From: Pseudazoarcus pumilus
Lineage (GTDB): Bacteria; Pseudomonadota; Gammaproteobacteria; Burkholderiales; Rhodocyclaceae
Length of the DNA stretch: 64,000 nt
Assembly (NCBI RefSeq): GCF_002872475.1
Contig: NZ_CP025682.1
Location: 2,790,001 to 2,854,000, forward strand
Direction of reading: 5' to 3'
Part shown: positions 12,603 through 16,987 of the stretch, piece after piece
How positions within the stretch are numbered: position 1 is the first letter of the stretch
Layout: every line of letters begins with the position of its first letter
Notes under the pieces: model-generated
What the model was told of the DNA's origin: nothing
The model's database searches: none
Seen by the model: the letters and a program-made list of their open reading frames with translations, nothing else
Made by a program: the position numbers and the translations under genes

Positions 12603-13271
12603 ATGTCCGAAGATTTGATCCGCGAAATCGCACAAGAGGTCGTCCGCCAGATGCCACCCGTGGGCGGATGGGCGTACTACGTCATCTTGGTGCTCTGCAT
12701 GGTGGGCTCGGCATTCCTAGGGGCCTACTTCCGGAAACGCGGGGAAACCTTCGCTACGAAGGCCGACATGGAGGAAGTTCTCAGGCAACTCACGGAGACT
12801 ACCCAGGCGACGGAGGAAGTGCGAGCGGCCATTTCCCATGCTGACTGGCACACGAGAGAGTGGAAAACCTTGCGCAGACAGAAATTGGAGGACTTGTTGT
12901 GCGCAGTTCATCGTGCGCGCAATGACTGGCATGAGTATGTGCGTGGAGTCCTTTATGCCGAGAAAATTCCTTCTGGAATGCCACAGACGTGGGATATCTC
13001 AATGCTCTGCTGCTTATATTTTCCTGAGCTTCGAACACAAGTGCAGCAGGTCCTCGAAGTGACGGAGGCTTATTGGAAGTGGGCTCACGACATTCGAGCC
13101 GGTCAACCTTCCGTGATTCCTGGAAGCGTCGGATACGAGGCCTACGCGGCCACAACGATCAGCGAAGCTGAGCCTCGCATTGGCGCGATAAGGGATGCTG
13201 TTCAAGCCGTTGATGCTCGAGCGGCTGACTTGATGAGGGTGTTTGCCAACATCAATGACGGCGCGACGTAA
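12603..13271 (+). CDS. Membrane-anchored coiled-coil protein of unknown function, 222 aa
   Basis: Plus-strand cargo gene. ATG at 12,603 follows a GGGGGAG by two bases; an alternative in-frame ATG lies at 12,585. The protein has a short N-terminal helix, one transmembrane segment (about residues 22-43, WAYYVILVLCMVGSAFLGAY), then YFRKRGETFATKADMEEV and a coiled coil (about 50-80), followed by a helical cytoplasmic domain. The GEx-ATKAD motif after the membrane helix recurs in accessory membrane proteins, but I cannot assign a function. Base composition is visibly lower in GC than the flanking phage genes, so it was acquired separately. TcmP begins 76 bases downstream. Confidence 0.85.
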   Translation: MSEDLIREIAQEVVRQMPPVGGWAYYVILVLCMVGSAFLGAYFRKRGETFATKADMEEVLRQLTETTQATEEVRAAISHADWHTREWKTLRRQKLEDLLCAVHRARNDWHEYVRGVLYAEKIPSGMPQTWDISMLCCLYFPELRTQVQQVLEVTEAYWKWAHDIRAGQPSVIPGSVGYEAYAATTISEAEPRIGAIRDAVQAVDARAADLMRVFANINDGAT

Positions 13272-13347
13272 TCTTTTTGTACCTCGTCGAGGCGCCGCGT
13301 TCTGCTACATTCCTGCTCATGTCATATCTCGGGCGAGGAAATCGAGC

Positions 13348-14187
13348 GTGGATAACGACTTTGGAGCCGAGCACACCACCGCCAAATTGAGAGCGCTGGG
13401 CGACTACTTGCCGGCCTACACGACGGCGCTGAAGGCTCAACCGTTTCGTCTCACCTACATTGACGCGTTCGCCGGAACCGGAGAGTGTCGAATCAAGATA
13501 CGAGGTGGGGAAAAGATCACGATTCCCGGGTCCGCGACCTTGGGTCATCGATGCGATCCGCCATTTGACCGGCTGGTATTCATCGAGAAGCACTCGGGAT
13601 TTGTGGACGATCTGAACCGTCTACGCGCGAGCACGCCCGAGCGGGAGATCGATGTGATCTGTGGAGACGCGAACGTCGAACTGCCGCGAGTTCTTGCGCG
13701 CCTCAACCCCGCCAGTGATCGGACCGTGATCTTCCTCGACCCGTTCGGGATGGAACTGGACTGGGCCACACTCAAAGCCGTGGCGAAATCGGGGTTCGCG
13801 GATGTCTGGTATCTCTTCCCGTTGTCGGGACTCTACCGACAGGCTGCTCACAACTCGACCGACGTCGACGCGGGCAAGGCCGCCCGCCTGACGCGAATGC
13901 TTGGGACCGACCGCTGGAGAGTCGATTTCTACAAGGAACCGCCTCAGATGGGGCTCTTCAGCAAGCCGGATGAAGTGCGGGACTTTGACGTACAGCAGAT
14001 GACCGACTGGGTGACCGAGCACCTTCGGTCGATATTCCCAAAGGTGATGCCTCCGAAAATCCTTCATCAGACGATGCCGTCCGGGGTGCAGGGCGCGCCG
14101 CTGTACGCGCTCTATTTCGCAATGGCCAACCCGAGTTACAGGGCGCATGCGTTGGCAACCCGGCTCGTCACCCCGTCACTGCGGTGA
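13348..14187 (+). CDS. tcmP: Three-Cys-motif partner protein TcmP, 279 aa
   Basis: The N-terminus NDFGAEHTTAKL, the Rossmann-like YIDAFAGTGECRI (about residues 37-49) and the DPFG motif after a hydrophobic strand (about 128-134) are the hallmarks of TcmP, a methyltransferase-fold family named for genomic pairing with a three-Cys protein. The GTG start was chosen for its GAGG 9 bases upstream; sequence before it is the tail of the preceding gene. The 3' end overlaps the convergent DUF5131 gene by 20 bp. No biochemical function is established. GC content is lower than in the phage structural genes. Confidence 0.9.
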   Translation: MDNDFGAEHTTAKLRALGDYLPAYTTALKAQPFRLTYIDAFAGTGECRIKIRGGEKITIPGSATLGHRCDPPFDRLVFIEKHSGFVDDLNRLRASTPEREIDVICGDANVELPRVLARLNPASDRTVIFLDPFGMELDWATLKAVAKSGFADVWYLFPLSGLYRQAAHNSTDVDAGKAARLTRMLGTDRWRVDFYKEPPQMGLFSKPDEVRDFDVQQMTDWVTEHLRSIFPKVMPPKILHQTMPSGVQGAPLYALYFAMANPSYRAHALATRLVTPSLR

Positions 14188-14923
14188 TGGTCGTGATCGG
14201 GTAGGCGTCCCAGGTCCGGCCATCGAGCACACGACCGTTGGCTTTCTTGTTGCGCTTCACACCGTCCGCGCCCCAGCCGCCCCACTGCTTGAAGAAGAAC
14301 GACACGCCGGCGTCCAGGCATTGCCGGCGAACGGCGGTGACCCATTCCGCTTCCATCGGGCGGGCCTGGCTCCCCGACTCGCCGCCGACGATCACCCAGT
14401 GGATGCCGCTGAGATTGAGTTCGCCCACATCCTCAAGCAGGGGTTCGACCGACAGAAACCGGATGCGCGCATTCACCCGACGCAGCTCGTCGATGCGAGG
14501 CACACCGTACTTGCGGTCCTCGACCGACACGCCCAGCCAGACATTGGCCGGCACAGGCTCATCGCCGAAGTACGCCGGCAGGCGCTCGGCGCGCTTGGTC
14601 AGGATCTGGTAGGTGTGTTGCGGCGTCTCGCGGATGACTTCGAAGACCTGGTCGATGAACGCGTCCGGCACCTGCTCATGGAACAGATCGCTCATCGAAT
14701 TGACGAAGTAGACCGTCGGCTTGCGGCGGCGCTTGGGCTGTTCCAGACGCTGTGGGTGGAGCGTCAACTCGAAACCGTTCTGATAGCCGTGCGCGCCCAT
14801 CGCACGAAGTCGGCGCGCCATGACCTCCGCGTAGCAGTGCTTGCAGCCGGGGCTGATCTTTGTGCAGCCCGTGACGGGATTCCACGTCTGCTCGGTCCAC
14901 TCGATCTTGCTTTCCGTAGCCAT
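14168..14923 (-). CDS. DUF5131 / phage Gp37-Gp68 family three-Cys protein, 251 aa
   Basis: Starts MATESKIEWTEQTWNPVTGC, the diagnostic opening of the DUF5131 (Gp37/Gp68) family. Cys20, Cys27 and Cys30 form CX6CX2C followed by YAE, which resembles an iron-sulfur site of the radical-SAM type but with non-canonical spacing. Other family features are MSDLFH, ILTKRAER, GVSVEDRKY, FLSVEPLL and GGESG. It is the standard partner of TcmP; here the two genes are convergent with 20 bp overlap, whereas they are usually co-directional. The ribosome site is AGGTGG before the ATG at 14,923. The reaction is unknown. Confidence 0.93.
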   Translation of the reverse strand: MATESKIEWTEQTWNPVTGCTKISPGCKHCYAEVMARRLRAMGAHGYQNGFELTLHPQRLEQPKRRRKPTVYFVNSMSDLFHEQVPDAFIDQVFEVIRETPQHTYQILTKRAERLPAYFGDEPVPANVWLGVSVEDRKYGVPRIDELRRVNARIRFLSVEPLLEDVGELNLSGIHWVIVGGESGSQARPMEAEWVTAVRRQCLDAGVSFFFKQWGGWGADGVKRNKKANGRVLDGRTWDAYPITTITAVTG

Positions 14924-15001
14924 TTTTCCACCTACTGTAAAAATTACCAGTCCACGGTGCTTACGCTGCCAGTCTAGACCCGTGTGCACCGAATTTGCGT
15001 C

Positions 15002-15031
15002 GTGATAGCCCCGATCCTTGACAGCCGTCAA
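15002..15031 (-). promoter_or_regulatory. Candidate promoter for the DUF5131 gene
   Basis: On the minus strand TTGACG (15,031-15,026) is followed after 18 bases by TATCAC (15,007-15,002), about 80 bases before the DUF5131 start. The -35 lies in an inverted repeat (CTTGAC with GTCAAG). A separate TGGTAATTT nearer the gene could be an extended -10. The rest of the 229-bp interval 14,924-15,152 shows no gene. Confidence 0.4.
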
Positions 15032-15152
15032 GAATCTGAACCGCGTTACCGCCCCGTTACTCGCCCGCACACGCCGCGATCACCTTTGATGCTGCGCCAC
15101 GGGCCGCGGCGCCCCCCGATCGCCCCGCCACGGGCCTGTAACGCGTCGGCCG

Positions 15153-15629
15153 CTATCGCCCGTCTTCCAGATACACCTCGAGCACGTCGAGTACGGTGCG
15201 GGTGGCCTCGGGGGCGAGCTGGTTGGTCTCGGGGTGGAAAGGCAGGAAGGGGCGTGCGGGGATCTGGGCGCCGGGGATCATGCTCAGCGCGCTGGTGGTG
15301 CCGCCTAAGTGCTGCATGGCGGCGTGGGGCTTGTTGCTGCCGATCCACGCCTCGGCCTCGGCAAAGCCCGTTTGCACGGACGCGGCGAGCTGGCCGCTGA
15401 CCTGGAGCTTGCGGCCGGTGGTACCGCTGCGCTCGCGCAGTTCTTTGGTGGTCTGCGACAGTTCGGGCCAGGCACCGGCCGGGCCGGATTCGGTCTGGAA
15501 CTGGCGTTCGGATTCCGAGGCCAAGGCAGCGGCGATGTTGGCCATGGCCGGGCGCATGTCACGCGCGCGGCCGCGCAGCGCCTGCAGCGCGGCGAGTACT
15601 TCGGTGTCGTCGATCTCGATCCGGAGCAT
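15153..15629 (-). CDS. Mu gpG-like virion morphogenesis protein, 158 aa
   Basis: 158-residue protein MLRIEIDDTEVLAALQALRGR... of the phage virion morphogenesis / tail completion family (Mu gpG, P2 gpS). Typical features are LASESERQFQTE, WPELSQTTKELRER, LQVSGQLAASV and the C-terminal IPARPFLPF. In Mu, gpG acts in head or tail completion. It follows gpF in Mu order. The interval of 80 bases between gpF and gpG is unusually long for this phage and contains a structured RNA candidate on the other strand. Confidence 0.92.
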   Translation of the reverse strand: MLRIEIDDTEVLAALQALRGRARDMRPAMANIAAALASESERQFQTESGPAGAWPELSQTTKELRERSGTTGRKLQVSGQLAASVQTGFAEAEAWIGSNKPHAAMQHLGGTTSALSMIPGAQIPARPFLPFHPETNQLAPEATRTVLDVLEVYLEDGR

Positions 15630-15645
15630 ATGCTATTCTCGATAT

Positions 15646-15741
15646 GAGGGCGGTGATCCTCCCTGGGGGAGGCTTAGATGGCCGGTTCGAACCCGTGCAC
15701 CGTCCTCGATCAAAGCGGCCGCCATCGGCCGCTTTTGATTT
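15646..15741 (+). ncRNA. Candidate structured small RNA antisense to the late operon
   Basis: On the plus strand a 10-bp helix (15,646-15,655 with 15,698-15,707, one G-U pair) closes a junction with a 6-bp hairpin (CCTCCC/GGGAGG, 15,658-15,672) and a T-loop-like arm (CGG-TTCGAAC-CCG, 15,683-15,695). It is followed at once by a terminator-like hairpin. An extended -10 (TGC TATTCT, 15,631-15,639) places a start at the first base of the outer helix. The same helix read on the minus strand has an A-C mismatch instead of G-U, which favours the plus strand. No expression evidence is available. Confidence 0.45.
15709..15741 (+). terminator. Rho-independent terminator (plus direction) inside the end of gpF
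   Basis: AAAGCGGCCG (15,712-15,721), loop CCAT, CGGCCGCTTT (15,726-15,735), then TTTTGATTTT. The 10-bp GC-rich stem with U-rich tail fits a terminator for plus-strand transcripts, either of the small RNA candidate or of read-through from tcmP. On the minus strand the U tract is poor, although the stem also encodes the last codons of gpF. Confidence 0.7.
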
Positions 15742-16987
15742 TCCGATCCGCGTCGGCGTCCCGGTAGGCCGAATCGACCGCGCCATCCGGCCCCACCATC
15801 ACGTGCTTGCCGTCGGGCAATTGTCCGATGACGTTTCCCGTCTCGCTGTCGCTGAACCACTGCGCCTCGCCCATCGCTGCGGGCAGCGCGGCCCACTCCT
15901 CGCGCGTGAGCGCGTCGCCCTTCTCCTGGTGGCGTCGAGCCTTCTTGCCGATGATCAGCCGGTCCTCCGCATGGATGACCGGGGCGACGGACTTCCCTTC
16001 CTGCGACAGACGGCGCACGACCTCGAGCGGCAGGATGCCGAGGGTCATGGTCTGGCCCTGGATACGGTCGAACTCGAAGGTGTTGTCGACGAAGCTCGAC
16101 CACGCCTTCATGCGCGTGGGCGACGTGACGGCGCGCGCCACGCTGGCGAAGCCGGCTTCGCCGCCCAGCGCGTCGACGGCCTTCTGCGCCAGCACGTTGT
16201 CCATCCAGTGGCCGGCGAGCGGGTTACTGTTGAAGCCGGGGTCGGCCCACATCACGGTGGGCTTGCCGTCGGAGCCGGTCACGCGGATGCCGGTCTGTTG
16301 GGTACGGAACAGTTCGCCGCTGCGCCGGTCGGTGCCGGCGTCGACCGTGCGGGTCACGGTCTGTCCCCGGCTAGAGCGCACATCCAGCCCTTCACGCTCC
16401 ACCTGGCTGGCGGTGAGCGGACGCGTGCGGCAACGGCAGTTGAAGCCGTTGGGCGGGGTGTGGGTGTCCCAGATCGGGTCATCCTTGGCGAAGACCTGCC
16501 CGTCGAGCGCGGCGTGCGTGGGGCGCGTGCGGCTGTCCATCACCGCCACGTACTGCAGGTAGGGGAAGGCGTCGGCCGCCTGCTGCGCCTGGGCGCGCCC
16601 GGCCATGTAGACGCTTTGCACGTTGGTCTGATAGATGGTCTTGAGCCGGCGCGGGCTACCCAGCTGCACCATCTCGGCACCGCCGGACGAATCGACCACC
16701 ACCTGTTTGCCCCACCAGCCCTTTTCCTGAAGCACTGGTTCGAGCTCGTCGCGGAACTGGCGCAGCGTCTTGCCCTCGCGCGTGGCGTCGATGACCGCGC
16801 GGCGGATGTCGGACAGCACATCGATACGCGTGGCTTTGGCAACAGTGAAGGCGCGCGCGTGGGCTTCGTCGAGCATCTCGGCCCAGTTCCAGGTGACGCG
16901 CAGCCCCTTGGATTCGAGCCAGGCGACGGCCTCAGCCGGCTCGCGGTCGAACAGCGCGGCCAGCGTCTCGCGGTCAGGCCCGGCCAT
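15710..16987 (-). CDS. Mu gpF-like minor head protein with C-terminal domain, 425 aa
   Basis: Residues about 1-230 are the Mu F / SPP1 gp7 head morphogenesis domain, with TIYQTNVQSVYMAGR and the conserved C-terminal motif HTPPNGFNCRCRTRPLT. In Mu, gpF is a minor head protein next to the portal. The last 150 residues (about 275-425) are an extra domain rich in charged residues; similar extensions in gpF proteins belong to the Barnase/EndoU/ColicinE5/RelE-like nuclease superfamily, which I suggest but cannot confirm here. The start at 16987 overlaps the portal gene end by 14 bp. Confidence 0.92.
   Translation of the reverse strand: MAGPDRETLAALFDREPAEAVAWLESKGLRVTWNWAEMLDEAHARAFTVAKATRIDVLSDIRRAVIDATREGKTLRQFRDELEPVLQEKGWWGKQVVVDSSGGAEMVQLGSPRRLKTIYQTNVQSVYMAGRAQAQQAADAFPYLQYVAVMDSRTRPTHAALDGQVFAKDDPIWDTHTPPNGFNCRCRTRPLTASQVEREGLDVRSSRGQTVTRTVDAGTDRRSGELFRTQQTGIRVTGSDGKPTVMWADPGFNSNPLAGHWMDNVLAQKAVDALGGEAGFASVARAVTSPTRMKAWSSFVDNTFEFDRIQGQTMTLGILPLEVVRRLSQEGKSVAPVIHAEDRLIIGKKARRHQEKGDALTREEWAALPAAMGEAQWFSDSETGNVIGQLPDGKHVMVGPDGAVDSAYRDADADRKIKSGRWRPL

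Follow-up and report, generated by a model that had tools for sequence, protein, structure and literature searches.

A tRNA-like RNA antisense to the F-G junction of Mu-like phages as a candidate antitoxin for the RNase-like domain of gpF

In a Mu-like prophage of Pseudazoarcus pumilus, the genes for gpF (Phage_Mu_F, a minor head protein also annotated as DNA pilot; 15710-16987, minus strand) and gpG (Phage_tail_S/neck family; 15153-15629, minus strand) are separated by 80 nt, and an RNA on the opposite strand fills this gap. What is such an RNA, and what could it do at this position? Unless a locus is named, coordinates refer to the window, that is, the whole 64,000-nt stretch of DNA that was analysed. 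The original prediction had described a small phage-encoded RNA with its own promoter, an outer helix, two inner arms and a terminator, perhaps tRNA-like and either expressed in the lysogen or acting on late mRNA.

A structured RNA at the F-G junction

An extended -10 promoter element, TGCTATTCT, was recognised from sequence at 15631-15639 on the plus strand, adjoining the gpG start codon and without a clear -35 element. No TTGACA-like -35 is present, CGATCT standing at 17-nt spacing instead, and a general sigma-70 scan of 14900-16300 returned zero sites; the promoter of the RNA would therefore be of the extended -10 type. The predicted transcription start is 15646, seven bases past the -10 (TGC TATTCT). 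In relatives, antisense -10 signals were found at the same place.

The tRNA-like structured RNA itself, our candidate RNA antitoxin (15646-15707, plus strand), is defined by folding, alignment of relatives and covariation. Its outer, acceptor-like helix of 10 bp, including one G-U pair, joins GAGGGCGGTG (15646-15655) to CACCGTCCTC (15698-15707). Within it, on the same strand, lie a first hairpin at the D-arm position (CCTCCC-TGG-GGGAGG, 15658-15672; 6 bp, loop UGG), a variable stretch (15673-15682) in which four bases precede a conserved GAUGGC, and a T-arm-like element (15683-15695) of 3 bp with the 7-nt loop UUCGAAC (TTCGAAC in the DNA). An intrinsic terminator-like hairpin with a T-rich tail (15708-15741, plus strand; stem 15712-15735) comes last and overlaps the end of gpF; its stem is one of two detected in the region, where 1.1 were expected. 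Promoter, outer helix, inner arms and terminator were all found where the original prediction had placed them.

Folding of 15646-15741 gave -50.9 kcal/mol on the plus strand (z -3.94; 0 of 200 shuffles as strong), and this z fell to -2.18 once the flanks were included. The minus strand reached z -3.35, with 1 of 200 shuffles as strong. As both strands fold almost equally well, energy alone cannot assign the strand, and the window sequence taken by itself made a moderate case for an RNA.

Homologues at the same junction settled both points. A scan of bacterial genomes yielded two (L446, Candidatus Dactylopiibacterium; L449, a Rhodoferax MAG), and a scan of viral contigs for an 18-nt core gave seven matches, namely our own contig, L526, L528, L529, L530, L532 and L527; the last was discarded as a chance match with neither gpF nor gpG nearby. 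In the window and the seven true relatives, the RNA is antisense and adjoins gpG and a MuF_C-type domain, the gpF of L528 being cut by the contig end. Across these eight distinct RNAs, 96.7% of alignment cells were paired and 8 of the 19 pairs covaried two-sidedly, with 19 two-sided cells against 6.1 in shuffles (none of 500 reached this value) and 1-5 when the pairing partners were slid along the alignment. Two-sided changes affected six of the ten pairs of the outer helix and two of the six in the first hairpin, where no pair was broken. The T-arm-like element is nearly invariant and so has no covariation support of its own. Because homologues at one and the same junction keep the fold with compensatory changes, the conserved plus-strand RNA is real. 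The predicted plus-strand RNA antisense to the junction was thereby borne out, and the compensatory changes in homologous phages, whose lack had been named in advance as grounds for abandoning the idea, were present. Of the two inner arms drawn from the single sequence, the hairpin at 15658-15672 was kept; the second was not conserved as drawn, its site holding an extra helix in L446 and L532 and just four bases in the other relatives.

We then considered how far this RNA resembles a tRNA. ARAGORN reported no tRNA for it, and Rfam gave the window no match above the gathering score, low-threshold matches staying under their own cut-offs. A functional tRNA should have an anticodon loop and be recognised by ARAGORN or a covariance model, and the window RNA has no anticodon arm. 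Its likeness to tRNA lies in the acceptor-like outer helix, supported by covariation, and in a T-arm with a UUCRA loop, although this T-arm has just 3 bp compared with a full one in the RNA families that we call A and B. The suspected tRNA-like character was strengthened by the relatives, which are cloverleaf-like RNAs. Searches of phages and plasmids with BLASTN gave short chance matches only, and there was no second copy in the prophage's own genome or in 100 relatives.

RNAs of the same kind are already annotated in Mu-like prophages of E. coli, where NCBI tRNA-OTHER features such as RG55_RS27800 lie antisense at the F-G junction. One member of family A (L533 1844-1923; E. coli M3 987531-987610) is annotated in this way between phage head genes, and a family A query matched 169 of 5,426 E. 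coli genomes. These annotations were made automatically and without a function, and the family lacks a 7-nt anticodon loop in the alignment.

The C-terminal domain of gpF and the occupancy of the gap

The gpF gene next to the RNA has the architecture of MuF polymorphic toxins, with PF04233, a C-terminal extension and a portal gene upstream. Sequence types, a structural model and structural matches point to a PBECR/MuF_C-type RNase domain, a putative toxin, in the extension (aa 246-425; 15713-16252, minus strand). Iyer et al. (2017; PMC5512222), writing on phage polyvalent proteins, treat the domain in Mu as a PBECR that has lost activity and consider its active orthologues likely to be RNases; the gpF C-terminus would belong to this domain class. 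Pfam gave no MuF_C or PBECR match in the window gpF up to E 1; among relatives, PBECR2 (L011, L020) and PBECR3 (L029) scored above the cut-off, and MuF_C was sub-threshold in D108 and L013. A PDB sequence search with the domain profile returned weak NHL-repeat matches only.

The model of aa 246-425, built with 37 viral relatives, reached a pLDDT of 91.5 and a pTM of 0.84. Its first PDB match in Foldseek was the colicin D tRNase (E 0.13, weak), and a second structural alignment also recovered colicin D (Z 5.2, modest; 2.9 Å over 83 residues). Colicin D, BrnT, CdiA-CT toxins, colicin E5, YoeB and RelE are included in the first thirteen rows. As the Z values are modest, the argument is one of consistency at the top of the list, by which the gpF C-terminus is predicted to be closest to colicin-D-type RNase toxins. 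ToxN was not among the structural matches listed; such an absence excludes nothing, for this fold or for others. A putative catalytic motif, KKARRH (15929-15946, minus strand), contains His353 of gpF and is conserved, together with a SAY segment, in gap-bearing relatives. PBECR and other BECR-fold RNases are marked by an N-terminal helix with a histidine and by a conserved residue farther downstream, and His353 may be the counterpart of this histidine in colicin D.

To place this junction among others, we collected gpF loci from one order-level genome survey, five viral-contig scans that used gpF alignments, one genome-contig scan and eleven phage records. The end of gpF was complete in 506 loci; gpG lay in range in 474 of these, and 376 were distinct over the final 120 aa. 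The scans were ranked by similarity, with at most the best 80 matches taken from each, and the first were seeded mainly by gap-bearing proteins, so the frequencies below are not population frequencies. C-terminal types were called with our own HMMs, whose seeds were chosen by eye, and RNA families were initially grouped by eye.

Gaps went with long gpFs. When gpF had a C-terminal extension of at least 100 aa, 226 of 285 junctions had a gap of 50-450 nt (53 were shorter and 6 longer), compared with 10 of 91 when it had none (68 shorter, 13 longer). An earlier, smaller set had shown 105 junctions with and 19 without a gap for extended gpFs, and 6 with and 36 without for unextended ones. A long gpF is nevertheless no sufficient cause, as D108, D3112 and JBD67 have a long gpF and no gap. 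These cases prompted a test of the catalytic motif.

The test covered 149 distinct gpFs of the colicin-D-like domain type and used a pattern (KxxRH, HxxxxKH or HxxR) that was written after the result for [KR]H at the aligned column had been seen. The pattern was present in 108 of 109 gpFs with an F-G gap of 50-210 nt and in none of the 40 that had no gap. The single gap case lacking it (L382) is probably not of this domain type, and nine of ten further colicin-D-like gpFs with longer gaps carried the motif. With bare [KR]H at the aligned column, one of the 40 no-gap gpFs was positive (L249); it keeps KH, but its first His and NAY segment are missing. Within the colicin-D-like group, gap state changed at least 20 times on a MuF-domain tree, and the motif went with the gap in all 12 supported independent phylogenetic pairs (p 0.0005). 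Phages B3, with motif and a 123-nt gap, and JBD67, with neither, form a natural pair. Among no-gap members of the other PBECR types, both conserved histidines were lost in three of three PB3D proteins and the conserved arginine in four of five PB2 proteins (L322 retains it); the five PB3 proteins showed scattered losses only. Across relatives, an intact catalytic-motif pattern goes with a filled slot and a lost one with an empty slot.

In phage B3, an annotated ORF of 32 aa (ORF34; L043 2728-2826) sits in the F-G gap. An antisense RNA is likely there, and the ORF may be a spurious annotation.

RNA fold and nuclease type

The gaps were next compared by strand. Behind PBECR-type gpFs, -10 signals at p<=0.05 were found on the antisense strand in 63 of 178 gaps and on the sense strand in 7 of 178. 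The antisense signal was seen in 1 of 21 gaps behind other C-termini and in 0 of 10 behind gpFs without an extension. At the non-PBECR junctions (L130, L131, L015, L183 and others), 18 of 21 held sense ORFs of at least 35 aa; together with the lack of an antisense promoter signal, this is fitting for protein immunity. Folding z was dropped as proof across junctions, its mean lying barely under that of shuffles and being equal on both strands.

With near duplicates removed, antisense T-arms were present at 56 of 95 colicin-D-like junctions and at 0 of 83 other PBECR junctions (0/26 PB2, 0/36 PB3, 0/21 PB3D). The sense strand of the colicin-D-like junctions gave 0 of 95, and the 150 nt behind gpG, taken as a control, gave 2 of 89. 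One of 21 non-PBECR junctions had a T-arm (L183), probably by chance, as its C-terminus belongs to no PBECR type. Among the colicin-D-like junctions listed, 41 were without a recognisable T-arm, and some of these hold quite different RNAs.

Several groups showed covariation. The acceptor, D and T stems of family A (16 sequences) covaried: 98.4% of cells were paired, and two-sided cells numbered 56 where shuffles gave 17. Its alignment contains no anticodon loop of 7 nt. Ten tRNA-like RNAs formed a second set, with 88.1% paired and 8 two-sided cells, a result weakened by misaligned acceptors. Family C, found at PB3 junctions, had compensatory changes in 15 of 27 pairs, and its strand is fixed because all 15 RNAs contain G-U pairs, which the opposite strand would turn into A-C. 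We also weighed whether the structure works instead in the F-G mRNA, as a sense-strand signal for processing or translation. The minus strand of the window does fold (z -3.35), and the mean z of the gaps is the same on both strands; however, the complete lack of sense-strand T-arms at colicin-D-like junctions, the excess of antisense -10 signals and the G-U pairs of family C make such a signal very improbable.

RNA signatures were distributed by nuclease type. Signatures C (25 cases) and F (5) occurred only with PB3 and E (7) only with colicin-D-like domains, while D was found with PB3D in seven of eight cases, the eighth being the colicin-D-like junction L127. A further D-type match (L252) was discarded as coding sequence or away from the junction. 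The RNA fold thus follows the nuclease type, tRNA-like RNAs going with colicin-D-like domains and other folds with PBECR2 and PBECR3. This result bears on the view that the RNA is an antisense regulator of the late operon, pairing with the F-G mRNA or blocking transcription through the junction and so lowering gpG. Such a regulator would be expected to lie as this RNA does, opposite the F-G gap and the last part of gpF, with a promoter at the gpG start. If the RNA simply controlled F or G as an antisense transcript, however, neither the dependence on the catalytic motif nor the match between fold and RNase type would be expected, and perfect antisense pairing needs no conserved structure with compensatory changes. 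We consider regulation of this kind improbable, and action on late mRNA, as first suggested, is unsupported as the main role.

A related possibility is that a phage-captured tRNA gene is decaying here without function. In its favour, Rfam called tRNAs at two junctions (L104, L027), the remainder of the 40 scanned loci having no Rfam match there, ARAGORN called a tRNA in three of 36 loci, and NCBI lists the E. coli relatives as tRNA-OTHER. A relic would hardly show strong covariation, a fixed position and strand and dependence on a nuclease motif, and we regard this as extremely improbable. Two other Rfam hits, sRNA-Xcc1 (L134 4636-4723, minus strand) and C4 antisense RNA (L150 3136-3222, plus strand), lay away from the F-G junction.

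Some gaps held more than one RNA. Three T-arms stand in a row in L312 (427-nt gap) and two in L142 (207-nt gap), and the 294-nt gap of L127 combines a D-type RNA with a tRNA-like RNA beside a colicin-D-like gpF. The extra RNAs in these three phages look like spare immunities.

A putative immunity RNA and its relation to known systems

Since the RNA is present with an active-looking gpF tail and absent with a dead-looking one in related phages, we favour the reading that it is an RNA antitoxin, an immunity RNA directed at the RNase domain that gpF carries as a C-terminal fusion, and put this at roughly 70%. We infer that the RNA neutralises the gpF RNase in the following way. gpF would bring the RNase into the cell, and the RNA, transcribed from its own promoter, would fold into a tRNA mimic that lacks the anticodon arm and bind the RNase domain as an uncleavable decoy, keeping host tRNA safe. 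When a sister phage superinfects and injects its gpF, the lysogen could be guarded in this way, as could a producing cell against gpF synthesised before packaging; gpF and the RNA would then form a toxin-immunity cassette with the RNA as immunity factor. Colicin D cuts in the anticodon arm. The tRNA-like shape would suit a tRNase inhibitor, the elbow and acceptor being retained and the anticodon arm gone.

The main rival to the antidote reading is that the RNA serves the domain as cofactor, guide or cargo, being bound by the gpF PBECR domain for activation, targeting or carriage in the virion to the next host. Both the co-occurrence of RNA with motif and the agreement between RNA type and domain type would fit this equally well, and Iyer et al. 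(2017; PMC5512222) suggest that the inactive domain of Mu binds RNA. To our knowledge, however, known BECR-fold RNases need no RNA partner. The D-type RNA beside the colicin-D-like domain of L127 fits a spare immunity better, and an antisense promoter of its own, apart from late transcription, fits an antidote. On balance we judge a cofactor or cargo role unlikely.

Extended to Mu-like phages in general, the antidote reading becomes a broader proposal towards which we lean with some reserve. A polymorphic, virion-delivered RNase toxin would be met by RNA immunity, with unrelated structured RNAs matched to each nuclease type; anticodon-less tRNA-mimic decoys would be the largest group, encoded antisense behind the toxin gene, and spares would accumulate in some phages. 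If true, a polymorphic toxin system would have RNA and not protein as its immunity factor, and the known structured RNAs would gain several groups whose junctions gave no Rfam match. In the open-access literature, as covered by titles and abstract openings, no report of such an RNA was found.

The closest parallel in action is type III toxin-antitoxin systems (ToxIN, TenpIN, CptIN), in which an RNA neutralises an endoribonuclease encoded next to it. An RNA would do the same here, and several RNAs stand in a row at some junctions (L312, L142). In type III systems the RNA lies upstream in the same operon and strand as a tandem-repeat antitoxin, whereas here it lies downstream of gpF on the opposite strand, as a single RNA in the window and as several only in a few relatives. 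It also has its own promoter and is a mostly single-copy, tRNA-like RNA, and the putative RNase is the C-terminal domain of a virion protein, whose predicted fold would be that of colicin D and not of ToxN. The pair would work like a type III pair, but with its different gene layout we set it apart from membership in that type.

Colicin D is the closest solved fold to the gpF domain, and its inhibitor, ImmD, is a protein that mimics the tRNA substrate; here, in contrast, a tRNA-like RNA and not a protein would be the inhibitor. Phage tRNAs are known to rescue infection from host anticodon nucleases, as in T5 against PARIS, and there too a phage tRNA-like RNA is set against a tRNase. In that case, however, a usable tRNA replaces the one cut by a host nuclease, whereas here an anticodon-less mimic would act on the phage's own nuclease.

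MuF polymorphic toxins of temperate phages were described by Jamet et al. (2017; PMC5576092), and the parts of that paper on immunity propose small immunity proteins. The toxin domain behind MuF and an immunity factor expected directly downstream agree with our locus; unlike in their proposal, the factor here would be an opposite-strand RNA and not a small protein. The account of PBECR in the corresponding passages of Iyer et al. (PMC5512222) names no RNA partner, unlike the pairing suggested here.

Two accessory genes lie downstream of gpG in the window. The first, on the plus strand (13243-14187), encodes TcmP, a three-Cys-motif partner protein (TIGR04474); the second, on the minus strand (14168-15070), encodes a DUF5131 radical-SAM-like protein whose score falls short of the NCBIfam cut-off for its best model. 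The pair occupies the site of the anti-CRISPR genes in D3112 and JBD24.
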